A stretch of 37,941 nt of DNA, from NCBI GenBank assembly GCA_027334165.1, contig DAHWXM010000006.1, positions 1-37,941 on the forward strand. Reading direction: 5' to 3'. Made by a program: the position numbers and the translations under genes. Below the pieces are notes generated by a model. It made no database searches and was not told where the DNA came from. It was given only the letters and a program-made list of their open reading frames with translations. The stretch comes from Microcaldota archaeon. Its GTDB lineage: Archaea > Micrarchaeota > Micrarchaeia > Micrarchaeales > CABMGC01. The first letter of the stretch is position 1. Each line of letters begins with the position of its first letter. Below, in pieces: positions 3,795 through 23,135 of this stretch.

Positions 3795-5064
3795 TGCCGG
3801 CATGCCGTTTCTCCGGATACGCCCGTGATCCGTACAGCGCGTAAAATACGTCCTCTAGGACCTCCGGCCGCCCCATGGCTATAACGACAGTTGCATCGTT
3901 GCCTACGCCAAGCGCATCGCTTATGAAAGAGATCTCCTTCTCCGTGACGCACTGCGGAGGGTTCCTGCTGGTGAAGGCGAGGCAACCCTTGTCGGCAAAT
4001 TGCTCTATCACAGTGTTTTCGTTGTCAATGCGGGCCGCAACCATGGCGAACGAACGCTGCGTGCCCGAGATGTGCGATAGCACGGAGACGTGCTTGTTGT
4101 CAGTGAACGCACCGGTGACATCGAACAGCCGCACTGCGGCGTGCATGTGTTCCCGTCTCTTTATTCTCTCAGGTGCGGATGACGAGTGCTTTCTCTGCAG
4201 GACTATGCCTGCGCTTAGCATGAGCGCGGCCACAATGTATATCGCCCTCATCGGAGTGCCGAGCGCGAGGTACGATAGCGGTATCGTCATGAACGGCACT
4301 ATCAGCATCGCGTTTCCGGTGAATATGGGCCCGAGGATCCTAAAGGCATAGTAATAGAGCGTCGTTCCCAGTGTGTACGTTATTATCCCGAGGAACAGTA
4401 TGGCGAACGTGACCGCGGGGGTGAAGTTCACTGACAGGCTCGTGCCGGTCCCTACGGCCAGTGCGGCGAAGAAGGCGAGCGAAACAAAGTTGAATATGGC
4501 CACCGAGCTGAACGTGTCTGCGTTGTACATCTTCATGAACAGGTTTGCCAGGGTGACAACGAAGGCCGATGCAAGTATCAGCATGAGAAACGGGGCCTCC
4601 AGTGAGTTTATCCCGGCAACCCCAGGACCCGCGGCCATCAGGTATATGCCTACGAAGCCCACTAGCAGAGCTGCGTACTGCGCCTTGCCGACCCTCTGCT
4701 TCAGTGCAAACGGGACCATGATGGCAGCCATTATGACCCAGCTGCGGTAAAGTATCGCGGCGATGCTCGGGTTTGTATTCGCGGCGCCTATGCCTAGGAG
4801 CATCTGGGATATCGCGTCGTTGAACAGGCCGACGAGGAGAACTATGGCGAGGGTATTCCTGTTGAGCACTATCTCCCGTATTCCGCGCAGCCCGTCCCGG
4901 GCAATGCCTATGATGAGCGACGCGGCAGAGCCCGTAAGGAATACGTAGAATAGGAGCTGCACCGTACCGATGTCCTTCCCCGCGTACGCGAGAGGTATCG
5001 GATACGCGGCAAGCTCGATCACTGCCGCGGACAGCGCGAGGAGCGCCTTGTGTCCCAGCTTCAT
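3766..5064 (-). CDS. EamA/DMT-family transporter with C-terminal soluble domain
   Basis: About ten hydrophobic helices (EamA-like repeats), then a ~130-aa hydrophilic C-terminus. Start likely MKLGHKALLALSA at 5064. Confidence 0.75.
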   Translation of the reverse strand: MKLGHKALLALSAAVIELAAYPIPLAYAGKDIGTVQLLFYVFLTGSAASLIIGIARDGLRGIREIVLNRNTLAIVLLVGLFNDAISQMLLGIGAANTNPSIAAILYRSWVIMAAIMVPFALKQRVGKAQYAALLVGFVGIYLMAAGPGVAGINSLEAPFLMLILASAFVVTLANLFMKMYNADTFSSVAIFNFVSLAFFAALAVGTGTSLSVNFTPAVTFAILFLGIITYTLGTTLYYYAFRILGPIFTGNAMLIVPFMTIPLSYLALGTPMRAIYIVAALMLSAGIVLQRKHSSSAPERIKRREHMHAAVRLFDVTGAFTDNKHVSVLSHISGTQRSFAMVAARIDNENTVIEQFADKGCLAFTSRNPPQCVTEKEISFISDALGVGNDATVVIAMGRPEVLEDVFYALYGSRAYPEKRHAGITPPSSAAP

Positions 5065-5180
5065 ACCATTCCCCAGAAGACATCGTGAAGCCAACCTTAT
5101 AAATCTTGCACAATGGCAAAAATTGTTTGTGCATTTTGCGAAAAATGTATATTTATATAACTGAGTTGCGTCAGTGTATC

Positions 5181-6185
5181 ATGGAGTACTCCAAACGCGA
5201 AAAGCTCATCCTGAGGGAATTGAGCAACGATGCGCGGATCAGCGTGAGCAGACTTGCCGAGATCGCAGGTTGCTCGAGGCTCACTGCGAAGAGGATTGTG
5301 GACGAACTTACGGGAGAGCTTGGGATACGCTTCGTGCTGGAGCTTGACGAGAACAGGCTAGGGGCTAGGGAGCGTCACCTAATAGCGGTGTCATTCTCCA
5401 AGAGGCCGCCGGAGAAAGAATTGGCAGAATTCTTCGCCGGTGATGTCAACGCACAGGAAGCCTACCTTACGGAAGGCAACTTTGACCTAGTGGTTTACGC
5501 CACCGCAACCAGGCCTGAAGATTACATAATCTGGGAGACTAGGATAGCGACACACTTCTCGGATTACGGGGTCATGATAAGGCCATCGGAGTTCGTGCTG
5601 TCTCACTTCGGATACCTTCCGTTATCCAGCAAGCTGATACACAAGGTAGACAAGGAAAGCGGGATAGACGACAAGGACAAACTCATACTCGAGAGCCTGA
5701 ATGAGGATTCTAGGATGAACCTGTCTGAGCTGTCGAGGAGGACGGGGATGAGCGGCAACGTGATACGATACAGGATCTTCATGCTGCAGAAGTCCGGCGT
5801 GATAAAGAGATTCACGATAGCAATGCAGAGACCGGAGGGACACGTGTCGCTCTTCTACATGATAAACTACAGGTTTACCAAGACCACGACAAACATAGCG
5901 TTCGCAAGCGCCAGGGAGTTTTACATGGGCATAGACGGCGACTTGCCGCTGATCAACACCTTCCAATTCATAGCCCCTGTCAGCGGCAGCTTCAGGTCGT
6001 TCGGCATGGTGTGCGCACCGGACGAGAAGAGCGCGATGGAGTACGCGGTAAAGAGGCATAAGGTGATATTCAGGAACGAGGACGCGGAGATAAAGTACGC
6101 GGTTGTGAGGAAGGTGCTCAAGGGCCTCCTTCCGATACGCAATCTCGACATGAGGCAGAACTACAGGAAGATAGAGTGGGTGTAG
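5181..6185 (+). CDS. Lrp/AsnC-like transcriptional regulator with two HTH domains
   Basis: Two AsnC-type HTHs: REKLILRELSNDARISVSRLAEIAGCSRLTAKRIVDEL and DKLILESLNEDSRMNLSELSRRTGMSGNVIRYRIFMLQKSGVI. ATG at 5181 downstream of TATA-like TATATTTATATAA. Confidence 0.8.
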   Translation: MEYSKREKLILRELSNDARISVSRLAEIAGCSRLTAKRIVDELTGELGIRFVLELDENRLGARERHLIAVSFSKRPPEKELAEFFAGDVNAQEAYLTEGNFDLVVYATATRPEDYIIWETRIATHFSDYGVMIRPSEFVLSHFGYLPLSSKLIHKVDKESGIDDKDKLILESLNEDSRMNLSELSRRTGMSGNVIRYRIFMLQKSGVIKRFTIAMQRPEGHVSLFYMINYRFTKTTTNIAFASAREFYMGIDGDLPLINTFQFIAPVSGSFRSFGMVCAPDEKSAMEYAVKRHKVIFRNEDAEIKYAVVRKVLKGLLPIRNLDMRQNYRKIEWV

Positions 6186-6233
6186 CGCACGTTGGAATAC
6201 CACGATTTCATGGGGCACGGGATACAAAATAAC

Positions 6234-6252
6234 AATTTATTTCAAATAAATT
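6234..6252. promoter_or_regulatory. perfect palindrome AATTTATTT-C-AAATAAATT
   Basis: 9-bp arms around one base, upstream of TATA-like ATTTAAATATC (about 6269-6279). Confidence 0.5.
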
Positions 6253-6298
6253 TTGATAAAAGGCGAGATTTAAATATCTTCGAGGGAGCATACTTCCT

Positions 6299-6361
6299 TG
6301 TGTTAAGGAAACTAATGTTTTAACCCACCGACTCCTTATCCCACCCACTTTCCTTAACACA
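6299..6361 (+). other. 13-bp perfect inverted repeat, candidate 5'-UTR RNA hairpin
   Basis: TGTGTTAAGGAAA (6299-6311) and TTTCCTTAACACA (6349-6361), 37-nt loop, between a TATA box and the ATG at 6390. Confidence 0.6.
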
Positions 6362-6389
6362 CCATATTCAAAAACCAACCGGGATCGCC

Positions 6390-7100
6390 ATGAACAAGAG
6401 AATTAACTGGAAAAGGTTCGGACCCACAGTGGCAGGTGTGGCAGTCGCAACAGGATTGGCGATAGGCGCGTACCACGGCGCACGGGCAGACGAGCCCGTG
6501 GCGCAGACGCGCGGCGTGATTTCGCAGATTACAAGGAGTGTTTCGAACAGTACAGGCAGCGTTAAAGGCCAGCTGCCCCAGCAGGAGCAGAGCGAGCAGA
6601 AGCAGGAGAAGCTCGACCAGGAGCTGAAGGGCCTGCCTTTTGAGATATCAGACCCGGCGAGCAATGCGCAATGGGAGCAGGCGAAGTTCGATTTCGAATC
6701 TGCCGCACAGTACTACGCCGTAGCGGCGGGTAATGCGCAGATAATGGGAAAGCAGGATGTGGCAGCGTACTACGCTGCAAAGTCGGTTTCCACGCTGGAG
6801 ATACCAGCGAAGGATTACATGAACAGCGAACCGCAGATATCAATAAAGTACTTTGACATGGCTGCGGGGTTGGCGCTCGGATATTACAAGGCAGGCTACG
6901 GCCCAGAATTCCTCGGGTATGCGATAGACAACCTGAATATGCTTGAACAGGCTTACATCAAGAATGCAGAGAATGTGGATCCCAGCTACAAGGTGGCCGG
7001 CTTGACGATCAGCATCGGCAACCAGAGCGAGGCCAGACAGGATAGGGAGCAGGCGGCGAAGGTCCGACAGGAGATAAGCACCCTAGTAAGGAAGCGCTGA
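6390..7100 (+). CDS. hypothetical protein with N-terminal hydrophobic segment (secreted or membrane anchored)
   Basis: MNKRINWKRFGPTVAGVAVATGLAIGAYHGARA signal/anchor-like segment, then a Gln/Glu-rich helical domain. Confidence 0.6.
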   Translation: MNKRINWKRFGPTVAGVAVATGLAIGAYHGARADEPVAQTRGVISQITRSVSNSTGSVKGQLPQQEQSEQKQEKLDQELKGLPFEISDPASNAQWEQAKFDFESAAQYYAVAAGNAQIMGKQDVAAYYAAKSVSTLEIPAKDYMNSEPQISIKYFDMAAGLALGYYKAGYGPEFLGYAIDNLNMLEQAYIKNAENVDPSYKVAGLTISIGNQSEARQDREQAAKVRQEISTLVRKR

Positions 7101-7259
7101 GCCAATCCAGGAGAAACTGAAGTCACTCCTATTTGAGAGCCGCCGGGCAAGCGGATGGCACAGGAATTTTACGGGATGATAGCTGGGCGTGTAGCACTGC
7201 CTCCTTTTTACACAACTGCGGTTATATATTTTTCCACGTACATATAACTAGGTAATATT

Positions 7260-7856
7260 ATGCAGGCACAGTTCGACATAGGAAGCGTGGCACCGCAGAT
7301 AAAGGCAAAGGCTTGGTTCCCAGAGACGCAGAAGATAGCGGAGTTCAATCTCTCATCATACAAGGGCAAGTGGGTCATACTCACCTTCTATCCAGGAGAC
7401 TTCACGTTCGTGTGCGCGACAGACATAGAGGCATTCATGAGCTCCTATGAAGAATTCGTAAAGAACAATGTCGCGATAGTCGCGATCAGCACGGACAGCG
7501 TGTTCTCCCACAAGGCATGGAGCGAGACCTCGCCGCGGGTCAAGACGAGCAAGATACCGCTAGTGGATGACTTCAACAAGCGGATATCTACCGATTACGG
7601 CTACCTGAACCAGGAAACTGGTGCGGCAAGGAGAGGCACGGTGATAATAGATCCCGACGGAGTGGTCCAGTACGCCGCGATACACAACGATGCGATAGGG
7701 AAGGACGTCGATCACATATACACGGTGCTGATGGGCCTCAAGTACATACGCGACACCCCGGCGGCGGAAGGGCACGTGTGCGCGATACCGGCCAACTGGA
7801 AGCTCGGCAAGCGTGCGCTTGACATAGACGTGGTCAACGACATAGGCAAGCTCTGA
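7260..7856 (+). CDS. peroxiredoxin (AhpC/TSA family)
   Basis: YKGKWVILTFYPGDFTFVCATDIEAF peroxidatic Cys motif, GHVCAIPANW resolving Cys; TATA GGTTATATATTT upstream. Confidence 0.93.
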   Translation: MQAQFDIGSVAPQIKAKAWFPETQKIAEFNLSSYKGKWVILTFYPGDFTFVCATDIEAFMSSYEEFVKNNVAIVAISTDSVFSHKAWSETSPRVKTSKIPLVDDFNKRISTDYGYLNQETGAARRGTVIIDPDGVVQYAAIHNDAIGKDVDHIYTVLMGLKYIRDTPAAEGHVCAIPANWKLGKRALDIDVVNDIGKL

Positions 7857-7897
7857 ACGCGCTGTGAAACTTAATAAGCTTAGCTGTCCTAAGAGTA

Positions 7898-8743
7898 GTG
7901 ATGCTTATGCGCATGGCCATAACGGGTTTGTTGCTTCTAGTGTCAGTGCTTGCGGCACAGTCGGGAGCCATGTATCTCGCGATACAGGGTCCGGTCAACG
8001 GCACGCTCAACAACAACGGCAGCATATATCTAGGGAAGCTAGGACCTGGGGAGAGCTTCTACGTCCTCGCATCCGCATCTACGTCTAACGCGAGCGGCGC
8101 TTACGTCAACATAGGCTGGGACAGGTTCGAAGCGATAGGCCTTCCTAATGGATGGTCCGCACAACCGTCTCCACTCTACGAGAATCCGATGAAGCTCAAA
8201 ATAACCGCTGCGCCGTACGCACAGGACGGTGTTTACAGGCTCGTGCTTCGCGCTGTCAACGTAGGAAACTACTCAAAGCTGGGCAACATAACAGTCAGCG
8301 CGTACGTAAACGTTACACCCAACGTCTTCGAGCTCAACGTGAGCCCGCCCGTGATAAACACAGGAGTGGCACAGCCATCGAATCTTTACATAAGCATAAA
8401 CAACACTGGCATATCCGATGATCCATTCGTCATAAACGCGTACGGACTCCCGGCATGGAACGTTTCAGATGAGGTGATAGCACTTCACAGCACCTCCTCG
8501 GTATTCGTGTATCCTGTCTATGTAAAGGAACCCGGATCATACATGTTCAACCTTACCGTGACGTCGGCATCTAGTCCCTTAATAACAAAGTCGTACGCAA
8601 TAACGCTGAATTCGCAGTCGAGCCTGTCTAACGACTATTATGCGCTGGGCCAGGGAGTCGTGATATCGCCGATAATACTGGAACCGGCGTACAGCGTAAT
8701 GATGCTGCTTTCTGATATCTACAGGCTTGCTTCTGGAAACTGA
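7898..8743 (+). CDS. secreted/surface protein with C-terminal hydrophobic segment
   Basis: N-terminal signal MAITGLLLLVSVLAAQSGA, Asn/Ser/Thr-rich beta-type body. Confidence 0.55.
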   Translation: MMLMRMAITGLLLLVSVLAAQSGAMYLAIQGPVNGTLNNNGSIYLGKLGPGESFYVLASASTSNASGAYVNIGWDRFEAIGLPNGWSAQPSPLYENPMKLKITAAPYAQDGVYRLVLRAVNVGNYSKLGNITVSAYVNVTPNVFELNVSPPVINTGVAQPSNLYISINNTGISDDPFVINAYGLPAWNVSDEVIALHSTSSVFVYPVYVKEPGSYMFNLTVTSASSPLITKSYAITLNSQSSLSNDYYALGQGVVISPIILEPAYSVMMLLSDIYRLASGN

Positions 8744-8760: not shown

Positions 8761-9450
8761 ATGGCCAAGAAAGAGGAGAAGAGAGGTTCGAGCCTGCTTT
8801 ATGTGAAGGCCCGCACAATGGAGGACATAGCGAGATATGCGTACAGTCCGGACGTCGCACCTAAGAATCTCGTGTGCACGAAGTCAGGGAATTCATTCAG
8901 GCTCGTCGTGTTCGGCGAACACATAAACGATACGGTGATGGCGTATTACGTTGACATCGCTGATGAATCCAATGCGATGCGCTACACGCTGCCGAATTCG
9001 TACGAACGCGAGTCAGCGGTGCTGGCAGTCGGCAATTCTGCAAACGAAAAGAACAGCATGAGCGTGCTAAGGATGGACCTCTCCGTGTTCAAGGAGGAGA
9101 AGGACATAAGCCAGGAGGATATACTTCTCATAATGGTCTCATCGGCCGATGACATAGTTAACACAGTGGCAAGGAGGAGTGCACGGGAGGAGATCTCAAT
9201 GCCGTTATACTCCTTCGAGAGGGACGGAAAGAAATATATCGCCGGCTTTGATTTGGTCGAGGAACTGAACGATGATAGGAAAACCTTTTATTATGCTGTG
9301 CTCCAAGATAAGGAGTGTAAGAGTTTCATCAAGTATAACTATGCTGACAACACTTTCTCTCTGACGAACAGCGTTGATGAGCATGCTTATATCTATCTCA
9401 AGGTAATGAATCTCGAACAGGCGTTTCCATTCTTTAAAGTGCCCGATTAG
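8761..9450 (+). CDS. hypothetical protein; stop codon lies inside tRNA-Asn
   Basis: Intact 229-codon ORF with coding-like composition; TAG at 9448-9450 overlaps the tRNA acceptor region. Confidence 0.55.
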   Translation: MAKKEEKRGSSLLYVKARTMEDIARYAYSPDVAPKNLVCTKSGNSFRLVVFGEHINDTVMAYYVDIADESNAMRYTLPNSYERESAVLAVGNSANEKNSMSVLRMDLSVFKEEKDISQEDILLIMVSSADDIVNTVARRSAREEISMPLYSFERDGKKYIAGFDLVEELNDDRKTFYYAVLQDKECKSFIKYNYADNTFSLTNSVDEHAYIYLKVMNLEQAFPFFKVPD

Positions 9451-9512
9451 CTCAGTGGTAGAGCGCGTGGCTGTTAACCATGAGGTCGCAGGTTCAATCC
9501 CTGCATCGGGCG
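9441..9512 (+). tRNA. tRNA-Asn(GUU)
   Basis: GCCCGAT/ATCGGGC acceptor, GCTC/GAGC D-stem, CGTGG-CTGTTAA-CCATG anticodon arm, GCAGG-TTCAATC-CCTGC T-arm, G73. Confidence 0.96.
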
Positions 9513-9579
9513 ATGCCCTTCAGGTTATACCCCTACGGGACAAGGTATAAATATTCATCGCTGGCACAATGTCACGTCG

Positions 9580-11161: not shown

Positions 11162-12319
11162 TTAGGGGGCTGTGCTTATGCCCATCTCCTTGAGAGCATC
11201 CTCATACTCCTTTGCTTTGGATTTTACTAGATTGGCATATTCGGTGGCCTTAGATTCATCAAATGAGGACTGGAAAACCTTCTTTATATCATCCACAGAA
11301 CATTGCGTGTAGTCTAACAAGCTGCTGATGTTTAACTGTTGCTTCAGTTTAGACTCCACGTTTAATAACTTTTTCAAATCATCCTGCGGTATCTCTCCAA
11401 AGAACAAGAAAAACGAAGAATCGAAGACAAATTTCCTCACCTGTACTTTCTTCTCCTCCTCCATAGGTATCTTACCAAGTTTTATGTCAGTTCCTATAAG
11501 CTTAGTGAAATCGGCGGGCAGCATATTCTTTCCTATAATACCAATATTACCTCCGCCCATCTTCGCCTTGAATATCAGTATGTTCATATTCAAAAACTTA
11601 GAGTAGTCGCCCTCACCGTATCTTTTGTATAAGAATTCCTTCTGCCTGTCACTTAGCTTATCAAGTTGCTCTTTCCATTCTGTTTCTAACTGGTTTCTAA
11701 GTTCTTTGTATAGCCATTGCTTCAGAAAATTAGGGTTTTGCAACTTCTTAGTTAATCTATTAGCAGTTGTTACGAAAAATGAACTGCGCCTACCCATCCT
11801 TACAAATCCTACTTTCTGTAAGAAAGCTGGATATAATCTTACAAGTCTTACTTTATTAGACACGGGAGCTGGGTTGGCATAACAATATAGGATAAAGGCA
11901 TCAGTTCCTTCAAGATGTTTGGCTACGTCTGCTTGGCTAATTAGTCCTTTATCTACGAGTTTTGCTACCAGATTCACTCTTGCTTTTTGTTGTTCTCCCA
12001 TCTTTTGAGTCATTTCTTTAATAAGTTTAATCTGCTCATCACTAGTCTTTTTCTGATCCTCGCCCTGCTTTTTTAATTCACCGACATTACTTGTAAACTG
12101 AGATTGCAAGGTAGATACGGCAGTACTGAATTCCTTATTTGATGAGGCTTTATCTACAAATTGCAAGCCTCCCATAACTATGATAATTATTCCTATTATC
12201 CAAAGAGGCACTAACGTTGTGTTGAATGTCAAATACTCAAGAATACCTCCAAAAACAATCAGGAGGAGGGACACCCAGTAATTTTTTAGTACTTTTTGGA
12301 GGTTCATTGAGTCTACCAA
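11162..12319 (-). CDS. membrane-anchored coiled-coil protein, last gene of the RM operon
   Basis: Two N-terminal TM helices (WVSLLLIVFGGILEYLTF, LWIIGIIIIVMGGLQF), then a long charged helix; starts 6 bp after the hsdS stop. Confidence 0.6.
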   Translation of the reverse strand: MVDSMNLQKVLKNYWVSLLLIVFGGILEYLTFNTTLVPLWIIGIIIIVMGGLQFVDKASSNKEFSTAVSTLQSQFTSNVGELKKQGEDQKKTSDEQIKLIKEMTQKMGEQQKARVNLVAKLVDKGLISQADVAKHLEGTDAFILYCYANPAPVSNKVRLVRLYPAFLQKVGFVRMGRRSSFFVTTANRLTKKLQNPNFLKQWLYKELRNQLETEWKEQLDKLSDRQKEFLYKRYGEGDYSKFLNMNILIFKAKMGGGNIGIIGKNMLPADFTKLIGTDIKLGKIPMEEEKKVQVRKFVFDSSFFLFFGEIPQDDLKKLLNVESKLKQQLNISSLLDYTQCSVDDIKKVFQSSFDESKATEYANLVKSKAKEYEDALKEMGISTAP

Positions 12320-12325
12320 TAAGGG

Positions 12326-13414
12326 TTAATTTGCAGGATTAAAGTATTTGTTTGATAAAGACTCTAGAAGAAGATTAAGTTTATCCGAAGTAACTATCTG
12401 CGTTTCTCTAATCTTCTCAAAATAAGACATCTTTTGTGAAAATTCCTTTTGAAGTTCCATGGAAGGGACTTTTATTTGCTCCTCTAATAAGTATCTGTAA
12501 TGACGGCTATATCCTCTACTCTCTATACCTACTTCTCTTAATGCGTAGTAAAAGTATTTAGGATCAAATTCTTTTGAAGGTGTTAGCACTTTAACACCAT
12601 CAGCTCCCAAAGCAAATTTAAAATCAATATATTTTAAGCATAAAGTATGGTCACCAAAAAGGATAACTGGTAAATCCCCGTTATATAAAGACTCTTCACT
12701 ATCTGTATAACCTCCGATGAGACTTTTGCCCTGGTCTACTATCGGATATTTGCCACTTTCCGAAAACTTGTTTTTAGGTATCTTTACAATCTTGCATTTC
12801 GGTTTAACTATACAATCTTTTATTAAACGTGTTTTAATTTCTTTAGCAAACGTAAGGTGAAATAAACTTGAAGAATATGAATCGCTCAACTGTATTGCAT
12901 GAATGTTCCTTTCATGGATCTGGTTTACCTTTAACAGGTTGGACGCTATACGTCTTTGTACTTCAAGAGAGGGTACCTGAATAAACAATGTCTCAAAAAA
13001 TTCTTTTGGTACCCTCTGTCTACCAGTTGTACCAGTCATGCTTTTTACGGCAGAATCTCTGATCTCTGGGGTCTTTAGTAAAAAATAAAGCCAGTCCGCA
13101 AGTACCTTTTTAGGTGATATTACTATAAACTCAGTGGATCCTAATCCTACTTCATCTTCTAGTCCTCTCGCTATTGCTACTTTGCCATTTTCTGTGCACG
13201 GAGTTATTCTTGCAAATAATATATCATTCTCTTTGAATCTGCTAAGACCAGAATTCTCACTAGTTTTATTAATAAAATAACTTATTTTTCCTGAAGTTTC
13301 GTCTATTGCAGACATCTCAATAAAATGATTTTTGGAGTTTTTAGTTAAGTTGTATGAGGGGTTTATATCTGCAACTTCAGTCAACTTTCTATATTCGATG
13401 TTATTCCTCATCAT
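12326..13414 (-). CDS. hsdS: type I restriction-modification specificity subunit
   Basis: Two target-recognition-domain-like halves (FKENDILFARITPCTENGKVAI...VPSLEVQRRIASNLLKVNQI; VPSMELQKEFSQKMSYFEKIRE). Confidence 0.9.
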   Translation of the reverse strand: MMRNNIEYRKLTEVADINPSYNLTKNSKNHFIEMSAIDETSGKISYFINKTSENSGLSRFKENDILFARITPCTENGKVAIARGLEDEVGLGSTEFIVISPKKVLADWLYFLLKTPEIRDSAVKSMTGTTGRQRVPKEFFETLFIQVPSLEVQRRIASNLLKVNQIHERNIHAIQLSDSYSSSLFHLTFAKEIKTRLIKDCIVKPKCKIVKIPKNKFSESGKYPIVDQGKSLIGGYTDSEESLYNGDLPVILFGDHTLCLKYIDFKFALGADGVKVLTPSKEFDPKYFYYALREVGIESRGYSRHYRYLLEEQIKVPSMELQKEFSQKMSYFEKIRETQIVTSDKLNLLLESLSNKYFNPAN

Positions 13415-14895
13415 ATCATCTTTTTAAGATTCTTTATATCTTCGACAATTTCCTCCTGTAATTTAAGCGTTTCTTCAAGTATTTTATCTGGGCTGCCTTG
13501 TTTAGAATTAACAACCTTCCTAGGCCTGTATAAGCCTGCAGAAAGCCCAAAATCACGATCCCTGATCTCTTCAAAATTCGCATACCAGCTCTGATCTGAT
13601 AAAGCCTTAGTTTTCCATTTTTCAAGAAGATCTGGTATGTCGTTTTCTTTTACTTGCATAGGTCTTGAACCTAAACTGTACCCTATATTATGAAGTTCGT
13701 AAAACCAGACCCTCTTCGTTGACCCGCCCTTTTTGAATACTAGAACTGATGTTTTCACTCCAGCATACGGCATAAACGCACCGCTTGGCATGGATACTAC
13801 GGCTTGCAAATCGCATTTTTCTAGCAGGTAGCGTCTAATGTCTTTGTGCGCAGCACTATTCCCAAAAAGTAAGCCTTCAGGCACTATTATACCACAACGC
13901 CCTCCATCTTTAAGCAGCTGAACTGCGTATCCTAGAAATAGTATCTCTGTCTTTGTTGCTATGATGGGTAAGTCCTTCTTTATTCTTGTCTTATCTATTC
14001 GACCAGCGAAGGGGGGATTCGTCAAGACAATGTCATACTGCTTGTCTTCTTCCTGCCCATATTCTATTGCAATTGCGTCCTTTCTCTTTACATTCTCTGA
14101 CTCAAGTCCATGTAGAAGTAGGTTCATTCTTGCGAATCTTATCATTCCTTGGTCAACATCGAAGCCGTACAGGGTGCTGTGTTCAAGCTTCTTTCTTTTC
14201 TCATCGTTTAGTAAGTCTCCCCAGTAGGCTTTCCTGTCTTTCAGTGTTGCGGGTCTGGAGTTATTCTTCAATATGTTGAAGTACGAAGCGATAAGGAATC
14301 CTCCTGTACCACATGCAGGGTCGACTACTGTTTCGCCTATTTGCGGGTTTACCATCTCAGTAATGAAGCTTATTAGGTGTCTTGGCGTTCTGAATTGCCC
14401 AAGCTCACCAGCAGCATCCATCTTTGAGAGAAGGTACTCGTAGAGGTCTCCCTTTGTGTCATTATCAAGCATTTCAAGCGGGAATTCATTATCAATCTTC
14501 TGTATCAGGTCATGGAGAACGTCTGGTTTAGTTATCTTCAGTACTGCATCGTGGAAGTATTCTGACACGTCCTCGTTATTGGAGTCCACCTTCGACAGGA
14601 ATGGGAACAGCTCATCTCTGACAAATATCAATAATTCCCTACCGCTTTTGTCCAGCAGCTTGCTCCACCTATACTTGTCGTTTTTGCCACTGAATATAGG
14701 CTTGTATTTATCGCCAAGCAACTCTGCTTTCTCATCATCCCGTTCTTCCAGCATCTTCAAAAACAAAAGATAACTAATTTGCTCTACATGATCGCCAGGA
14801 TTTGGCAATCCCGAAGACCACAGATAATCTCTAAGGCCATCTACCTGGCTCTTTAGTTGCGTTATAGTCATTGCGTTTTCCACGTTTTCTACCAT
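13411..14895 (-). CDS. hsdM: type I restriction-modification N6-adenine methyltransferase subunit
   Basis: DPACGTGGFLIAS SAM motif, VLTNPPFAG NPPF catalytic motif, N-terminal LWSSGLPNPGDHVEQISYLLFLKMLEE. Confidence 0.96.
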   Translation of the reverse strand: MVENVENAMTITQLKSQVDGLRDYLWSSGLPNPGDHVEQISYLLFLKMLEERDDEKAELLGDKYKPIFSGKNDKYRWSKLLDKSGRELLIFVRDELFPFLSKVDSNNEDVSEYFHDAVLKITKPDVLHDLIQKIDNEFPLEMLDNDTKGDLYEYLLSKMDAAGELGQFRTPRHLISFITEMVNPQIGETVVDPACGTGGFLIASYFNILKNNSRPATLKDRKAYWGDLLNDEKRKKLEHSTLYGFDVDQGMIRFARMNLLLHGLESENVKRKDAIAIEYGQEEDKQYDIVLTNPPFAGRIDKTRIKKDLPIIATKTEILFLGYAVQLLKDGGRCGIIVPEGLLFGNSAAHKDIRRYLLEKCDLQAVVSMPSGAFMPYAGVKTSVLVFKKGGSTKRVWFYELHNIGYSLGSRPMQVKENDIPDLLEKWKTKALSDQSWYANFEEIRDRDFGLSAGLYRPRKVVNSKQGSPDKILEETLKLQEEIVEDIKNLKKMI

Positions 14896-17066
14896 TAAAC
14901 CACCTCTAGATTTGGATTTAGCTTAGGGAACACTAGCGTGTTCAGCTCCTCTATTATCTTCCTAAGGTCTCCATCAAACAATGCCTTGGCCCTTGCTATG
15001 CCTCCGATACTGCGTATGGCTGGCTTGTCGAAGTCTGCCATAGAAAGCTGCACTTGATTTACGATGAAACGGTTGGCCAATACCTTAAGGAAGCGCGCCT
15101 GTTCTTGAGTGAAGTTCTTCTGCGTTACATACGACTCGAAGGCACTGTTTACCAACTCCTCTGGGTTAGGGAACTTGTATGCCCCTATTGCGTGTCTGAT
15201 GAACTCTACAAGCGTAGCAAACCGCTGGTCGTAGACTTGCTGCAGGTTTTCCTCATTGAAGAAGTACTTTGGCTGGTTCAACTCTACAGCAAGCTGTTCT
15301 ATCTCTTTCTCATCGACCTTCTCATTATCCTTTATCTTCTTTAGTATCGGATGATCCTTCAACAGCTTCTTTACTGTCATTACGAAGACATCCTGGTATT
15401 CCTTTCTGTCTACTAGCTCACCATTTGTGCCGACCTGTATGACTGCTCTAGATTCTATCTGATCCTGTACGTTTGGCAGTTCTATTGGCTCGTGCGTGCC
15501 TGTAGGTAATCTCCTATGCTCTGCATGGCTGAAGCCAGAGAACAGTATCGCAGCTAGGCCTTTCGGGTCATAGCTCTTGTCCTTGAAGAAGTCAGAGTTG
15601 CCTACAAAGTCCCATAGTATGAATGCCTTCTTCTTTATCCTTTCACATATCCTTGAACCCCTGCCCCTCATTTGCAGATATAGCACAACAGAAGCAGTAG
15701 GCCTCATCATCACAATGTTGATTACTTCTGGACAGTCGAATCCAGTATCAAGCATACCTACTGACACTGCTATCTGCGGATACTTTTCAGTCTTGAACCT
15801 CCTGATTACTCTGTCAGCGAAGATCGTGTCTGAGGTTATGACTTCTGCCATCTTGCCTTGATGCTCTGGATACGCTTCGTTGAGCAGCATTGCCAACCTT
15901 GCGGCATGGCGCTTTGTTACAGCAAACACTATGGTCTTGCCTGGGTTGTCTCCTGCTTTCTGCCTGAATTCCTGAACCCATGCTTTGTTTGTGGCTGGCA
16001 CTATGACCTTTCTCTCCAGATCAAATACATCGTAGTCTTCAGTTTCGTACTTCAGGCCTCGTATAACGATGCCAGTAAGTGCCTTGTATATGTTGTAAGA
16101 GGACAGATATCCGTCCTTTATACCATCTTGGAGTGTGTATGTGTAAGTGGGCTTAAGATAAGTGCAATCAAAGAACTCGTAGGTGTTCCTATCTATCTGC
16201 GGACTTGGTGTTGCTGTCAGACCTAGCTGTATCGCATCAAATCTGGAGAGACAAACCTGCCACTGGCCATAAATAGAACGGTGACACTCGTCTGAAATAA
16301 CAAGGTCAAAGTATGCAGGACTGAACTCTGCATAAGTGTTTACCATTGTCTGCAGCGTGCTTATCGTTATCTCTTTCTCCTGCTTCTTGGCCCCTGATTT
16401 GAGTATATACGTAGAATGGTCGGATAATAGCTGCTTGAATGCGCTCTCTGCTTGATTTGCAAGCTCTGACCTGTCAACTAGAAATAGTACTCTCTTTGCC
16501 CTTCCTGATAGGATAAGACGCTTTACAAGGGCGATAGCCACTCTTGTCTTCCCTGTTCCTGTGGCCATCTCTAGAAGTGCCTTTCTCCTGAGTTGCTCTA
16601 GTTCAGCTTCAAACTTCTTAACTGCATCCATCTGGTATTTCCTGTCTATGATGTGCTCCGTTTCCTTCCAGGGTATACTGGAGAGTGGTACTATGCGCTC
16701 CCTTGCTGCCAACCTGCTTTCTAAGTCTTTCTGTGTAAAGAACCCTGAGACTGGCCTTGCATCAGAACCGCCCTTATAGTCCCAGAAGAGTATCTTCTCC
16801 CCGTTGCTCAAGAATATGAACTCAGCATTATGGGCTTCAGCGTCTTTCTGCGCCTGGCCCTTTGCGCTATACGGCTCAATGTCTGGCTTCTTCGCTTCTA
16901 TGAACGCCAAGACTCTGCCTCTCCTGTCCTTTAGAGTATAGTCCTGTCCACCTGCGACATCGCCACCATAGGTAGATACTTGGCTCTTGTCTTCTATGTC
17001 CCAGCCAGCCTCCTGCAGCTTGCGGTCTATGACTATCCTAGCATCAAACTCTGATTGTTTCATCAT
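14895..17066 (-). CDS. hsdR: type I restriction endonuclease subunit (DEAD/DEAH)
   Basis: DYTLKDRRGRVLAFIEAKKP nuclease motif, LLEMATGTGKTRVAIALVKRL Walker A, VISDECHRS, MRPTASVVLYLQMRGRGSR. Confidence 0.94.
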   Translation of the reverse strand: MMKQSEFDARIVIDRKLQEAGWDIEDKSQVSTYGGDVAGGQDYTLKDRRGRVLAFIEAKKPDIEPYSAKGQAQKDAEAHNAEFIFLSNGEKILFWDYKGGSDARPVSGFFTQKDLESRLAARERIVPLSSIPWKETEHIIDRKYQMDAVKKFEAELEQLRRKALLEMATGTGKTRVAIALVKRLILSGRAKRVLFLVDRSELANQAESAFKQLLSDHSTYILKSGAKKQEKEITISTLQTMVNTYAEFSPAYFDLVISDECHRSIYGQWQVCLSRFDAIQLGLTATPSPQIDRNTYEFFDCTYLKPTYTYTLQDGIKDGYLSSYNIYKALTGIVIRGLKYETEDYDVFDLERKVIVPATNKAWVQEFRQKAGDNPGKTIVFAVTKRHAARLAMLLNEAYPEHQGKMAEVITSDTIFADRVIRRFKTEKYPQIAVSVGMLDTGFDCPEVINIVMMRPTASVVLYLQMRGRGSRICERIKKKAFILWDFVGNSDFFKDKSYDPKGLAAILFSGFSHAEHRRLPTGTHEPIELPNVQDQIESRAVIQVGTNGELVDRKEYQDVFVMTVKKLLKDHPILKKIKDNEKVDEKEIEQLAVELNQPKYFFNEENLQQVYDQRFATLVEFIRHAIGAYKFPNPEELVNSAFESYVTQKNFTQEQARFLKVLANRFIVNQVQLSMADFDKPAIRSIGGIARAKALFDGDLRKIIEELNTLVFPKLNPNLEVV

Positions 17067-17516
17067 TCATCCCTTGTTTAGTCTCTTGATCCCTTTCCTC
17101 ATTGAAGACATAGAATTTGCCTTTGAAGAAGATCCATGCTCCTCCAGGTACGTTTTGCGTGTCTTTAGGCCCATCTGCATGGCTTCCAATACCATTTCTA
17201 CAGTTTCAGCAGAGGTTTCAGCTAGAAGTTCTGAAACACTCTCTGCGCCGTGCGCCCTTAAGCCACTCCACCTGAGCATGTCCTTCCCAGGCACGTACTC
17301 AATCTTGAATGCTTCCAATGGCGCATCTTCAGCTTCGTTGATCCTGTCAGTTATTGCCTTCTTGAAGAACTCGTTTGGTGTGACCCCTTCCTGAGCTAGC
17401 AGTTCACGGAATGTCTGCTTTGTTCCTGAAGGTACCCTAACCGATATGCTAGAATAAGTGATTTTCCTACGGCCAGTATACTGTAAGTCTGTCATAGTAT
17501 AGGGTTTCTCGGCCAA
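17067..17516 (-). CDS. small putative DNA-binding (ribbon-helix-helix-like) protein, first gene of RM operon; start TTG 17516 or ATG 17495
   Basis: RRKITYSSISVRVPSGTKQTFRELLAQEGVTPNEFFKKAITDRI resembles an RHH fold; abuts hsdR. Confidence 0.5.
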   Translation of the reverse strand: MAEKPYTMTDLQYTGRRKITYSSISVRVPSGTKQTFRELLAQEGVTPNEFFKKAITDRINEAEDAPLEAFKIEYVPGKDMLRWSGLRAHGAESVSELLAETSAETVEMVLEAMQMGLKTRKTYLEEHGSSSKANSMSSMRKGIKRLNKG

Positions 17517-17539: not shown

Positions 17540-17556
17540 TGTTGACAGTGTCAACA
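17540..17556. promoter_or_regulatory. perfect palindrome TGTTGACA-G-TGTCAACA, candidate operator
   Basis: 8-bp arms around one base in the divergent intergenic region between the RM operon and wHTH-PCNA. Confidence 0.6.
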
Positions 17557-17762
17557 TATAATATTCACATTTTCACTTTTTCACATAGCCCAAGCTAACA
17601 CCCATCGCATTGACTCTACTTCACCCAGAAACAGCAGGCTTCTTGTATAGCGTTGCCCAAAACGCATTTTGCTGTGGATATAACGCAGTACAAACATAAA
17701 TGCCTATCTACGTTTCAAGGTCGTGGACATTCTATAAAAACATTGTCCGCTAATGGTATATC

Positions 17763-18800
17763 ATGCCAAAAGACAAGACTAGGGACAAGCTCCTGGAGCT
17801 ACTTGCACAGGGCAAGAAGTACACACAGGGCGAGCTTGCCAAAGAGCTTGGAACCAAGCAGTCTGCCATATCAAAACAGCTAAAGCGCATGGAGAAGCGG
17901 GGCTGGGTCATAGGTCATGGAACTACCTCCAATCGCCACTTCGAGCTTACCAAAAATGGAATAAGCGCAGCGCAGAATCCCTCTCAAAATGGAATAAGTA
18001 GAGCCTCAAAACCTGAAAATGGAATAAGCTATACGGGCAATGTGTTCCTTGTAATAAACGCTCTTTCCTTCAAGGAGATGATCGAAGGAGCTGTCAACCT
18101 CAAGGATACTGAGAAGGCTAAGAAAGCCTTGATCCGAGTCGGTATGGACGGAATCGAAATAAAGCAGCTGGACTCAAGCGGGATATCGATGATCGTTGCC
18201 CGTATTCCGAAAGCGCAGTTCATATCATACAGGCTCGGCAGCCCTGAGAACATAGGCATATACGTGGAGAGAGTTTCAAGGCTGATAGAGAGCATGCCGA
18301 ACGACAAGGAATTAACCATAGCCGTACTGGAACAAGATGGCAAGAAGAGATTAAGGCTGGAATGCGAAGGAAATGTCAGTAGCGTTTCCATTGAAGAAGG
18401 CGTCAGAGGAATGGAAAAAGAGCCGCATGTCGTTTTCAAGTCCGTCGCAGAGATTGACGGCAAGCTGCTGCATAAAACCGTCCGTGAGGTTGCTAAGGCT
18501 GGTGATGACCCTACTGTAGCGGTAAAGATAAGCAAGGACGGCCTCGGCCTGGCAGCCAGGCTGGAGGGCGGGGGATATACTCGCAGAACATTCGACAGAT
18601 CGCAGGTAAGAGTGAAGGCAGACGCTCAGGAACAGATCGCAGCATATAAGACGGAATACATAGAGAGCATGCTCAAGGGGCTAAAGAAGGACACGCCCGT
18701 AACCATTCAATTGACTACAAAAGAGCCCATCAGAATCAGCTATCGCATGGACGGAGTCGACTTCGCATACTATCTGGCCCCGTACATAGAAGATGAATGA
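17763..18800 (+). CDS. winged-helix/HTH domain fused to a full-length PCNA-like DNA sliding clamp
   Basis: N-term RDKLLELLAQGKKYTQGELAKELGTKQSAISKQLKRMEKRGWVIGHG (wHTH); C-term ~250 aa PCNA: VFLVINALSFKEMIEGAVNL..VGMDGIEIKQLDSSGISMIVARIPKAQFISYRLGSPENIGIYVERVSRLIES ... YKTEYIESMLKGLKKDTPVTIQLTTKEPIRISYRMDGVDFAYYLAPYIEDE. Confidence 0.85.
   Translation: MPKDKTRDKLLELLAQGKKYTQGELAKELGTKQSAISKQLKRMEKRGWVIGHGTTSNRHFELTKNGISAAQNPSQNGISRASKPENGISYTGNVFLVINALSFKEMIEGAVNLKDTEKAKKALIRVGMDGIEIKQLDSSGISMIVARIPKAQFISYRLGSPENIGIYVERVSRLIESMPNDKELTIAVLEQDGKKRLRLECEGNVSSVSIEEGVRGMEKEPHVVFKSVAEIDGKLLHKTVREVAKAGDDPTVAVKISKDGLGLAARLEGGGYTRRTFDRSQVRVKADAQEQIAAYKTEYIESMLKGLKKDTPVTIQLTTKEPIRISYRMDGVDFAYYLAPYIEDE
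17953..18028 (+). repeat. three copies of AAAATGGAATAAG (encode NGIS) in the linker of wHTH-PCNA
   Basis: Exact 13-mers at 17953, 17986 and 18016 (33- and 30-bp spacing). Confidence 0.8.
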
Positions 18801-18846: not shown

Positions 18847-19794
18847 GTGGAACTTATGACACTCTTAACAAAACACATAATTTACGCTATCATAGCCTTT
18901 GCTGTGCTCCTAGTGGTTGTGTATTTCGGTTTAATTTCATTTGTAGATATTCCCGCATGGGCAGCACTCATCATAGCGGCCTTCAGCATATATTATTCTA
19001 GCGAATCCTTGATTATGGACGTTAAAATCAAGCATTCTGAAGACTTGCACAAGTTCATCGCCGAATGGAAACGTGTAAATGAAGGGTTTTATTATAAGAT
19101 TATACCTCTAATGGGTGCAGAATTTCAGAAGAATGAGTTAAAGTTTACTAGACCTCAATATTCCCTAGAAAGTATAAACAATGACATATTATATACGGAT
19201 TTGACAAAGAACCATTTAGAAGGTAAATATAAGGAATTGCTAGAAAACTGGAGGAAGTACTGTAAGTTAGCCGAGGAATTTGAAACAAAGCTCAATGACC
19301 TACGCAGTTATATCCAAAAGTTAGTTATGAAAGAGCTAAGCACAGCAGGATTATCACAAACAATAGATTACAACTACAAAGGCAACGACGTAGTAAATCC
19401 ATGGTTTATAGATACATTGTTCTCAAATTATATCTCAGATATTGATAAAAGTCAACAGATAAAGGTACAGGAGATAAACTATAGCCTACCAGAAACACAA
19501 TCTATGGCAAAAGGATACCAAGTCACATTAACTAAGAATAACGGTTTGTTTAGCGGTTCCATAGCTATCGCACGCAACACACAAAATGCAGAGAAATATG
19601 TTGCTATTTTTGAGAACTTACAGAAGGAATCCTCTAACACAAAAGACAAAGAACTCAAAGCCATGTTAAGTGATATATCGAAGAAAGGCGAGGGCATCAG
19701 CACTTTGTTCCAAGAAGTATCTAAGACCCTAGTTGATTTAGATAAATATCCCGTATTCGGAGAAAAATGCGAATTTATTAGGAGAGCACTATAA
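18847..19794 (+). CDS. two-TM membrane protein with cytoplasmic helical domain
   Basis: IIYAIIAFAVLLVVVYFGLISFV and IPAWAALIIAAFSIYYS hydrophobic segments, then charged helical region; GTG start or internal ATG. Confidence 0.55.
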   Translation: MELMTLLTKHIIYAIIAFAVLLVVVYFGLISFVDIPAWAALIIAAFSIYYSSESLIMDVKIKHSEDLHKFIAEWKRVNEGFYYKIIPLMGAEFQKNELKFTRPQYSLESINNDILYTDLTKNHLEGKYKELLENWRKYCKLAEEFETKLNDLRSYIQKLVMKELSTAGLSQTIDYNYKGNDVVNPWFIDTLFSNYISDIDKSQQIKVQEINYSLPETQSMAKGYQVTLTKNNGLFSGSIAIARNTQNAEKYVAIFENLQKESSNTKDKELKAMLSDISKKGEGISTLFQEVSKTLVDLDKYPVFGEKCEFIRRAL

Positions 19795-19796
19795 GT

Positions 19797-21668
19797 TCAG
19801 AAGATGAAGTGATCGCTTTCAATATTAAAGGCGTCTTTAATCTTCTTCGATAGATCCTCATAACCTCCATCAATGTCATTCATTGTTTTCAATTGGTCGA
19901 AAAATACAACTTGGATGCCCTCTTTAATCAGTGCGTTCCGTATATCAAGTCTTCTGCTAAAAATTAATTCTGCTTCACTGGGTTCGTACTCATCTTCTTC
20001 GGAATCACCAATATCAATATCATACGTAAAGCCCATCACGAAAAGATATTTTTTGATCTCCTTGTTCACAGCAATATTATAGTCTTTCCTAATTTTTGTA
20101 TAATCTAGAGACTTGAAGAACTTCAAAACGTCTCCTATGTCTTTTTCGAGGTTCTTTGTCTTCAGCGACATTGTAGTCTTAGCTTGTACTAAGAATGCTG
20201 TTAAGTTATTCTCTGCAAGCACATCCAAGTCCGTTTTGTTAAAAGCTTTATGTAAGGCCAGGAGATTTGCTTTATAGCGTTTTAAGATGAACATGCAGGC
20301 TAAAAACTCTGTGGATAAACCCAGTGATAACTGTAATCTCTCTATTAATTCTTTTATTAAAATTGTGTCAAGATACCTCTCCGTGGTATAAGTTTTCAAT
20401 AAACTATAGGAAGTCTTTACGCTAATCAATGAGATATTTCTCTTATATACTTCTATTAGGCGGTCAAGCAAACGTTTTGTATCTGACTGATATCCCCCCT
20501 TGTTGAATAGCGCAATAGAATCAAATACTATCCAGTATGAGCCATTACTTATTCCAAGTGAACCAAACATAGGTACGTATATTGCATAGCTGTAAGCATA
20601 GTCTTTTTTAGTTCTGTATATGGGATCTTCGTGCTCAAACCTAATGAGCTCAACTTTCTGATTTCTTAAAGAACTATCCCACACATAACCAAGAATCAAT
20701 CGCCTTAATATCTCTGTGGCTTCATCCAACTCATAAGCCCTTTTATAGCCCATGAACTCTGTAGTACGTATTAATGATATCGGCCTATTCCTAAAAAGCA
20801 GTTCCATATCACCGTTGTCTTTTGCCACTTTAATACTAGTCGCCCTTCGCATTGATACCCTGCGGATTTTGAATATTTTTACACACTCGCAGTTGGTGAG
20901 CTCTCCAAGTTTTATACATGCTTGCCTAAGTGCTTCTAAATCAGATGCATTGTCGAATTCATTTTTTATGTTAGAATATACGGAAGACGACAGGTAATCG
21001 CATAGATACATAATACAATATTTATACCCTAAAATGATCTCCATTCTGCGAGAAAATAGATTCTTATTCTCAATTCCTAACCAAAAACTCCTTGCGCTCT
21101 CATTAGTCATCAAACTGTAAAACAACGTTCCTGGTTGATACTGGCTCTTATAATAACCATAGTTATTGATCAACCACCTTAGGACTGAGTAGCGAAATGC
21201 AGTTTCGTTCTCAATAACTTTTGTTGGTTTATATGTAGTATCAATTTGCTTTTTTGCAGACTTTAATGCCCGCTTTAATTTATTTGCCTGCTCAGATACC
21301 TCTTTCTCGGAGATGTTTTTAGAATGTAGAATCTTCATTAGTCTTTTAATCTCATCTCTAAGTTTGAAGACGTGTTTTATGTTTTTATCATATTTAGATA
21401 GTTTATGTGCAGCAGAACCACCTAACGTTCCTCTGCCCCAAGCGATATATTCATACGTATCAAAAGCACGGGTTAACCTTTCCATATGGTTGATTATATT
21501 TACTACCAACACACCAGAGAAATAGACGTATCCACGAAGTAGGTTGGATCTTGAACTAGACCTCCCGCATTTATCCAGAAAGTCGTCAAAATTCTCCTGT
21601 TCTAGAACTTTAGTCAAAATAAAATAGTCGTAGTAAAATGTATCGTATATTGTTGGTGATTTGTCCAT
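19797..21668 (-). CDS. orphan 623-aa protein with candidate PD-(D/E)XK-like C-terminal nuclease motif
   Basis: Intact long ORF; C-terminal KTDLDVLAENNLTAFLVQAKTTMSLKTKNLEKDIGDVLKFF resembles D...QxK nuclease core. Confidence 0.6.
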   Translation of the reverse strand: MDKSPTIYDTFYYDYFILTKVLEQENFDDFLDKCGRSSSRSNLLRGYVYFSGVLVVNIINHMERLTRAFDTYEYIAWGRGTLGGSAAHKLSKYDKNIKHVFKLRDEIKRLMKILHSKNISEKEVSEQANKLKRALKSAKKQIDTTYKPTKVIENETAFRYSVLRWLINNYGYYKSQYQPGTLFYSLMTNESARSFWLGIENKNLFSRRMEIILGYKYCIMYLCDYLSSSVYSNIKNEFDNASDLEALRQACIKLGELTNCECVKIFKIRRVSMRRATSIKVAKDNGDMELLFRNRPISLIRTTEFMGYKRAYELDEATEILRRLILGYVWDSSLRNQKVELIRFEHEDPIYRTKKDYAYSYAIYVPMFGSLGISNGSYWIVFDSIALFNKGGYQSDTKRLLDRLIEVYKRNISLISVKTSYSLLKTYTTERYLDTILIKELIERLQLSLGLSTEFLACMFILKRYKANLLALHKAFNKTDLDVLAENNLTAFLVQAKTTMSLKTKNLEKDIGDVLKFFKSLDYTKIRKDYNIAVNKEIKKYLFVMGFTYDIDIGDSEEDEYEPSEAELIFSRRLDIRNALIKEGIQVVFFDQLKTMNDIDGGYEDLSKKIKDAFNIESDHFIF

Positions 21669-22430: not shown

Positions 22431-22526
22431 CTACGGCCTAGCCTATGCGCCAGCGCACGCCCAGGCACCCACGCCCCTTACAATTTAAATAATATAAATG
22501 AATTTATAGAATTTATATTCTGGTAT

Positions 22527-22542
22527 ATTCATTTAAATGAAT
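22527..22542. repeat. perfect palindrome ATTCATTTAAATGAAT flanked by direct repeats TCTGGTATA
   Basis: 16-bp palindrome; TCTGGTATA at 22519-22527 and 22549-22557. Confidence 0.6.
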
Positions 22543-22607
22543 GTATATCTGGTATACACACTTATATGCGAAAACAGGGCGAAAATCGACGGTATAAAAA
22601 TCCTCCT

Positions 22608-22653
22608 TGTCGGAGATGTGCCTGTGGCGCATATTGTGCTTCGGGCGATGCGC
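22608..22653 (+). repeat. 46-bp structured direct repeat, copy A
   Basis: TGTCGGAGATGTGCCTGTGGCGCATATTGTGCTTCGGGCGATGCGC; 41/46 identical to copy B. Confidence 0.85.
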
Positions 22654-22669
22654 TTCAAGTATGACCCGC

Positions 22670-23032
22670 TTAGGCCATTGCTTTTTGGAAGTATGCAGTA
22701 TCAAAGTATATTGCTGCAGAGTCAAGCTTGCCGTTTTTTACATTCCAAACCTCTGCCACGTCAGCACTGAATTTGTTTCCTTTTGGAGACATTAAGTCGT
22801 AGTTTACTATGACGCAGGCACTGTCGCCTTCTATTATCGTGCTTTTTATCTTCAGGCTTAACATTCCCTTGAAAAAGTTATTGTTAACATACGCTTCCCT
22901 CCCTATAGTCTCTTTAACCACCGTTCCAGTCAACGAGAAGGCATCGGATAAAATAGAACCAAAATCCCCTTTCTTCCGGAGCCCTTCATAATACTTATCA
23001 AGCAATTCTTTTGTCATATCCGAATCTGTCAT
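22670..23032 (-). CDS. NTF2/SnoaL-like small protein
   Basis: ELLDKYYEGLRKKGDFGSILSDAFSLTGTVVKETIGREAYVNNNFFKGM...ADVAEVWNVKNGKLDSAAIYFD typical of SnoaL-like folds. Confidence 0.6.
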   Translation of the reverse strand: MTDSDMTKELLDKYYEGLRKKGDFGSILSDAFSLTGTVVKETIGREAYVNNNFFKGMLSLKIKSTIIEGDSACVIVNYDLMSPKGNKFSADVAEVWNVKNGKLDSAAIYFDTAYFQKAMA

Positions 23033-23089
23033 TCTAACACCTACTACTATTGGTCTGAGAAAGAATAAAAGCCCAATTATCTGGTTTCC

Positions 23090-23135
23090 TGTCGAAGGTG
23101 TGCCTGCGGCACATATTGTGCTTCGGACGATGCGC
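23090..23135 (+). repeat. 46-bp structured direct repeat, copy B
   Basis: TGTCGAAGGTGTGCCTGCGGCACATATTGTGCTTCGGACGATGCGC; contains GTGCC-TGC-GGCAC and GCACA-TAT-TGTGC inverted repeats. Confidence 0.85.

Follow-up and report, generated by a model that had tools for sequence, protein, structure and literature searches.

Sliding clamps have no sequence preference on DNA and are placed on it by clamp loaders. What use, then, might an archaeal mobile element make of a PCNA that is joined to a winged helix-turn-helix (wHTH) domain, and is such a protein a real gene product at all? The question is raised by a gene, referred to below as HTH-PCNA, in the stretch of 37,941 nucleotides of a Micrarchaeota contig that is here called the window. 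An earlier sequence-only reading of the window had proposed that the gene fuses a clean N-terminal wHTH to a complete two-domain PCNA and is carried by an integrated element, divergently to a restriction-modification (RM) operon; a merger of two genes by sequencing error would have refuted it. For the function it suggested either a clamp directed to specific sites or a repressor built on a clamp fold, and the evidence given below bears on both. The features of the locus are collected in Table 1.

Table 1. Features of the integrated element and of the HTH-PCNA gene (positions in the window)
Feature	Position	Strand	Basis
tRNA-Asn (GTT), integration site	9440..9513	+	ARAGORN
Left attachment site, the tRNA 3' end	9502..9530	+	repeat of right-end core
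Tyrosine integrase, 408 aa	9580..10806	+	Phage_integrase E=1.7e-21
Whole cargo operon, type I RM	11162..17516	-	Pfam, PADLOC
385-aa membrane protein (cargo operon)	11162..12319	-	Pfam, PADLOC
HsdS (cargo operon)	12326..13414	-	Pfam, PADLOC
HsdM (cargo operon)	13411..14895	-	Pfam, PADLOC
HsdR (cargo operon)	14895..17066	-	Pfam, PADLOC
RHH protein (cargo operon)	17067..17516	-	Pfam, PADLOC
17-bp palindrome TGTTGACAGTGTCAACA, perfect save the central base, at RM operon promoter	17540..17556		sequence
~55-bp block, also upstream of cargo in sister elements L055 and L057, inverted there	17618..17671		sequence comparison
Promoter: TATA box flanked by inverted repeat GGACA/TGTCC, ATG ~28 nt downstream	17725..17748	+	22-bp core conserved in L053
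HTH-PCNA gene, 345 aa	17763..18800	+	sequence, profile, AF2 model, Foldseek
wHTH domain, residues 4-64	17772..17954	+	Pfam; AF2 pLDDT ~80 across most of domain
Linker, residues 65-92, three NGIS repeats	17955..18038	+	AAAATGGAATAAG at 17953, 17986, 18016
Two-domain PCNA, residues 95-345	18045..18797	+	profile searches, AF2, Foldseek
315-aa membrane protein	18847..19794	+	75% nt identity in L059; also the next gene after HTH-PCNA in G065
623-aa protein, no family match	19797..21668	-	no hits
231-aa protein, no family assigned, N-terminal hydrophobic segment	21735..22430	+	sequence
Right end: AT-rich repeat region and attachment site (22604-22662)	22454..22667	+	conserved in other elements, genomes

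The gene is one uninterrupted open reading frame, and both of its proposed domains were recovered. Residues 4-70 match several wHTH families above the Pfam cut-offs (among them MarR_2, 34.1 bits; HTH_5, 33.7; HTH_24, 31.0), and the AlphaFold2 (AF2) model contains helices at residues 5-14, 22-29 and 33-45 and a strand at 58-63, as in a wHTH with its recognition helix. The Pfam models PCNA_C (21.8 bits, cut-off 23) and PCNA_N (18.9, cut-off 20.3) both score slightly under threshold because the PCNA part is divergent. The NCBIfam sliding clamp model NF002222 is matched from position 25 to the last of its 245 positions (E=1.8e-21), and hhalign pairs residues 99-344 with 14 host-lineage Micrarchaeota PCNAs (99.6%, E=9e-24). 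Structure prediction gave a PCNA fold for residues 95-345, where a failure would have refuted the sequence-only reading. In Foldseek, each of the model's best 50 PDB matches is a PCNA, with TM(target) of 0.71-0.82 and a lowest E of 4e-19. The AF2 model was derived from 8 sequences (mean pLDDT 74, pTM 0.65); with only two sequences the wHTH was folded and the PCNA part was not. Two tandem clamp domains spanning nearly the full family model are thus present, with the qualification that they are divergent, at 29% identity to the host PCNA, and not near-canonical.

Carriage by an integrated element, occupying 9.5-22.66 kb of the window, is supported as well. The integrase gene adjoins tRNA-Asn, an att-like core at 22637-22662, which follows an AT-rich right end of ~200 bp, repeats the tRNA 3' end and gives att repeats at both ends, and the GC content of about 0.55 in the flanks drops to 0.34-0.47 between 9 and 23 kb. 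The orientation of the genes confirms that HTH-PCNA is divergent to the type I RM operon. Integrase copies with 79-95% identity, some of them partial, occur in five other genomes of the order, and in G065, G031, G089, G082 and G090 tRNA-Asn is likewise followed by the element or by what is left of it. The sister element in G082 (L057) encodes a 79%-identical integrase and another type I RM system and lacks a PCNA; members of the element family can thus do without one. Searches with the genes of the element gave no match to a replication initiator, replicative helicase or polymerase family. A PIP box was not found in the integrase, and the one strict match among the element's proteins, at the N-terminus of the 385-aa membrane protein, is plausibly a chance occurrence. 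Upstream of the cargo, the ~55-bp block of the window (17618-17671, inverted) is 86% identical to L055 4750-4804 and L057 6137-6191, with unrelated cargo genes downstream in the three elements; a cargo-exchange or regulatory sequence is a possible reading of this block.

The tRNA-Asn locus shows a further organization of its own. Downstream of tRNA-Asn, a ~55-bp unit is found repeatedly and always points the same way; it combines a stem-like part, GATGTGCC..GGCGCA, with the core TGCTTCGGGCGATGC from the tRNA 3' end. It occurs in the window (9502-9530, 22604-22662 and 23086-23135) and at the loci L108, L109, L110, L111, L061 and L095. The units separate modules of one to several genes, including those for DUF1579, RibD-like, SnoaL-like and surface proteins and a P-type metal ATPase. 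Between two att-like units of the window lies a lone SnoaL-like gene (22670-23032), as expected of a one-gene cassette, and in G090 (L095) a small gene that reads similarly has tRNA-Asn on one side and the PCNA fragment on the other. Of 164 genomes, 70 contain matches to parts of the right-end unit and 45 contain related integrases. By their sequence arrangement, these loci look like integron-like cassette arrays anchored at tRNA-Asn in this archaeal order; archaeal integrons have been reported, in a text that does not mention Micrarchaeota (PMC9668308).

A search for the same architecture elsewhere returned the whole fusion in two of the 301 genomes of the phylum, the window genome and G103, a Micrarchaeota MAG of the same order and a different family (contig JAJYLX010000002.1, locus L053, equated with the G103 contig by coordinates and scores). 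Both copies are in-frame fusions, and across residues 1-338 they share 94% identity at the protein level. Near the end of the L053 copy, a 1-bp difference, perhaps genuine and perhaps a homopolymer error, alters the last residues, part of the PIP-binding tail. Decayed pieces, all at the tRNA-Asn locus, occur in four more genomes: G065, where a deletion joins the integrase to HTH-PCNA from residue 49 via a common VIGH stretch and residues 49 to about 290 are retained in frame through the HTH/PCNA junction; G089 (residues 256-345); G031 (the last 24 residues, after an integrase fragment); and G090 (a PCNA piece near tRNA-Asn). The in-frame copy in L053 together with the decayed copies indicates that HTH-PCNA belongs to this element family, and that the junction and linker predate the window copy. 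Between the window and L053, dN/dS is 0.13 for the HTH (residues 1-64), 0.17 for the PCNA (93-338) and 0.16 overall; purifying selection acts on both domains. Two genes joined by error, or a gene in decay, would fit the origin of the data in MAG assemblies, the decay of several relatives and the frameshift close to the end of L053, but such an artefact or pseudogene is very improbable given that a second family carries the fusion in frame at 94% identity, that dN/dS is low for the HTH and the PCNA alike, and that promoter and linker are conserved. The claim of a single gene is borne out by the L053 copy and by the frame across the junction in G065.

In the linker, the three identical 13-bp repeats AAAATGGAATAAG (17953-17965, 17986-17998 and 18016-18028, spaced by 33 and 30 bp) encode NGIS, and this coding pattern is maintained in L053 and G065. 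The repeats were considered as iterons and rejected as such, since an excess of synonymous conservation is not demonstrable and no extra copies exist anywhere in the window; a fourth NGIS-like copy overlaps the start codon but has no conserved counterpart in L053. Of the other weak wHTH matches, those whose loci were inspected lie in unrelated proteins. No HTH-PCNA was found in IMG/VR, phages or plasmids. Phyla beyond Micrarchaeota were covered by exact peptide patterns (84,980 genomes), a search that remote HTH-PCNAs could escape.

The host MAG (816 kb, 83% complete) was checked for a clamp of its own, as the sequence-only reading had advised, and it encodes a separate canonical PCNA on contig 3. 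In a tree of 27 PCNAs, which is provisional because it includes no other archaeal phyla, contains long branches and has a bootstrap that is not fully settled, the three HTH-PCNAs join the Micrarchaeota host clade (100/100) on a long stem, apart from the archaeal viral PCNAs. The interdomain connector motif KEPxVxF, common to HTH-PCNA and the host Micrarchaeota PCNAs, agrees with the tree, and both provisionally suggest that the PCNA part was captured from a host-lineage PCNA. A second, strongly diverged Micrarchaeota PCNA paralogue without an HTH is encoded in G028 (L026 3525-4235); it is placed near the viral PCNAs on a long branch and apart from the HTH-PCNAs.

Which functions of a clamp could this protein have kept? 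The positions of the PIP-box pocket (L136, I141, M143, P322, L338, A339 and P340) are retained, as is the C-terminal LAPYIE tail with its LAP motif in the window copy, the tail being lost in L053 through the 1-bp difference. The retained pocket favours a role in binding clamp clients. The conserved residues of the subunit interface are not kept. Residue 179 is R in all 16 host-lineage PCNAs vs P in HTH-PCNA (window numbering), residue 234 is D/E vs K, residue 238 is D/E/N vs K and residue 242 is D vs E, each host state again in 16 of 16, and the RR[YF] block present in all 16 canonical Micrarchaeota PCNAs is deleted. These positions were tied to the Pyrococcus furiosus interface by alignment to 1iz4 and by the ion-pair residues of that interface, which we take to be R82/K84/R109 and E139/D143/D147. 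Among the Foldseek PDB matches are 1iz5, the P. furiosus mutant D143A/D147A, which alters both acidic positions aligned to HTH-PCNA, and 3a2f, a P. furiosus PCNA "monomer mutant". As judged from the alignment, the canonical interface charges are lost or reversed, and both faces depart from those of the host clamp; one should therefore not presume that the protein builds a standard ring or mixes with the host PCNA. On the simplest reading of these residues, the protein would still dock its partners but no longer pair with a host subunit, and HTH-PCNA could assemble into its own ring or act as a ring-less dock tethered by the wHTH.

The promoter provides a candidate target for the wHTH. The window and L053 are similar from 17726 onwards, a limit that coincides with the inverted repeat GACATTCTATAAAARCATTGTC holding the TATA box, and the sequence upstream is not conserved. 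In leaderless archaeal transcripts the ATG lies ~28 nt downstream of the TATA box; the same distance here supports the annotated start and thus the inclusion of the HTH in the protein. An inverted repeat around a conserved TATA box favours autoregulation, which from such a candidate operator we infer to be probable. GACA-N12-16-TGTC pairs show no enrichment within the window. The palindrome at the RM operon promoter is likely an operator to which the RHH protein or some other regulator binds; it was rejected as an HTH target, having only a half-site in common with the repeat and the RHH protein being an equally good candidate.

The claims on the sequence of HTH-PCNA are strong, and its function can be inferred from them. 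The reading ranked highest, which we favour tentatively and would not put at even chances, is that of an element-borne, self-regulated PCNA paralogue that is addressed to DNA by its own wHTH and serves the element. By binding the inverted repeat that encloses the TATA box of its own gene, the wHTH would bring about autoregulation, and it would probably also bind other sites of the element. At these sites, the PCNA part would dock host clamp clients (polymerase, FEN1, ligase, clamp loader), and the docked enzymes would help replication or repair of element DNA during excision or establishment. A subunit interface that has ceased to match would keep the protein apart from the host clamp. In favour of this reading stand the fusion in two genomes with decayed copies in four more, the purifying selection on both domains, the PCNA fold, the kept pocket, the altered interface, the place in the tree and the precedents in T. 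kodakarensis and archaeal viruses. Against it weigh the lack of matches to replication genes in the element, the PCNA-free sister element in G082, the GACA/TGTC pairs not being enriched, the altered tail in L053 and the integrase in which no PIP box was found.

A transcription factor comes next in rank and is unlikely: the PCNA fold would be merely a scaffold or oligomerisation module for wHTHs, and the protein would regulate itself and perhaps the divergent RM operon. HTH-PCNA indeed lies about 246 bp from the start of this operon, GACA/TGTC half-sites are present at both promoters, and the short wHTH is without the extra dimerisation helices that MarR and ArsR proteins carry. A scaffold, however, would need neither the conserved PIP pocket nor the C-terminal LAPY motif, and the flanking cargo differs in L053, so the link with the RM operon is not conserved. 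Ranked after the transcription factor, and unlikely as well, is an autorepressor coupled to a clamp mimic directed against the host, with the HTH silencing its own promoter and the PCNA part sequestering PIP-box proteins or poisoning the host clamp, to the arrest of the host or the advantage of the element. The position of the TATA box within an inverted repeat that is conserved in L053 while the flanks diverge, the combination of a retained PIP pocket with a lost host-compatible interface, and the precedents of the HTH-fused anti-CRISPRs AcrIIA15 and AcrIF24 (PMC10901769, PMC9001735) all suit this decoy. Purifying selection cannot separate a decoy from a working clamp, and the integrated element persists alongside an intact host PCNA, which argues against it.

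More doubtful than either is a site-addressed clamp in the strict sense, in which a host-incompatible orthogonal ring, or a ring-less dock whose wHTH replaces encirclement of DNA, would act at defined sites of the element; if true, the element would gain private access to host replication and repair enzymes without the normal RFC-directed loading. Least probable among the functional readings is a recombination directionality or repair factor, whose HTH would bind att or arm sites and whose PCNA would recruit nucleases and ligase of the host to the intermediates of integration or excision. Linkage to a tyrosine integrase and the conserved 200-bp right end with its palindromes would fit such a factor, but the L057 element has a related integrase and lacks HTH-PCNA, and the half-site arrangement of the promoter was not found at the right end. 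For the favoured DNA-addressed paralogue, the combination of a clamp, a sequence-reading domain and a diverged interface makes it testable whether PCNA can be site-addressed and whether a mobile element runs a clamp separate from that of its host, and HTH-PCNA may offer a small natural tool to place a polymerase or ligase at a chosen sequence.

HTH-PCNA shares with the archaeal PCNAs of host Micrarchaeota, P. furiosus and A. fulgidus the two-domain clamp fold, the PIP-box pocket and the LAPY C-terminus, and differs from them in the N-terminal wHTH and linker, the low identity to the host copy (29%) and a 4-aa deletion in the interface strand region. That PCNA paralogues exist on archaeal mobile elements, as the sequence-only reading held, is established. 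A precedent is PCNA2 of T. kodakarensis (TK0582), a dispensable protein that assembles into a separate trimer, departs from the host clamp chiefly at the interface and was probably acquired laterally, possibly from a virus (PMC3504372, PMC3984812). Like HTH-PCNA, PCNA2 is a second PCNA that differs from the host clamp at the subunit interface; unlike it, PCNA2 is a plain PCNA without a DNA-binding domain, for which a homotrimer and polymerase stimulation have been demonstrated. According to a review, chromosomal PCNA copies probably arose by integration of mobile elements (PMC8371274). Plain PCNAs are encoded by the archaeal tailed viruses phiCh1, CGphi46, HATV-3 and a Halorubrum tailed virus, as well as by Methanomicrobiales vir524 (about 246-258 aa in the four annotated records and vir524); they are likewise encoded by mobile elements, but fall outside the clade of Micrarchaeota PCNAs and HTH-PCNA.

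Virus HCIV-1, which has PCNA domains and no identifiable polymerase (PMC4958249), provides a case of PCNA domains inside a larger protein, VP1, which is also a Foldseek match; in contrast to HTH-PCNA, VP1 is a virion protein of ~1,608 aa (gene 3472-8298) and is not described as an HTH fusion. An element-borne PCNA is therefore already known, whereas no description of the HTH-PCNA architecture was found in the open-licence literature. A parallel in domain logic is offered by AcrIIA15 (PMC10901769) and AcrIF24 (PMC9001735), which are reported as HTH-effector fusions whose HTH represses their own promoter. As in HTH-PCNA, an HTH is joined to a functional domain on a mobile element; the effector fold and the target differ, and the likeness is one of analogy only.
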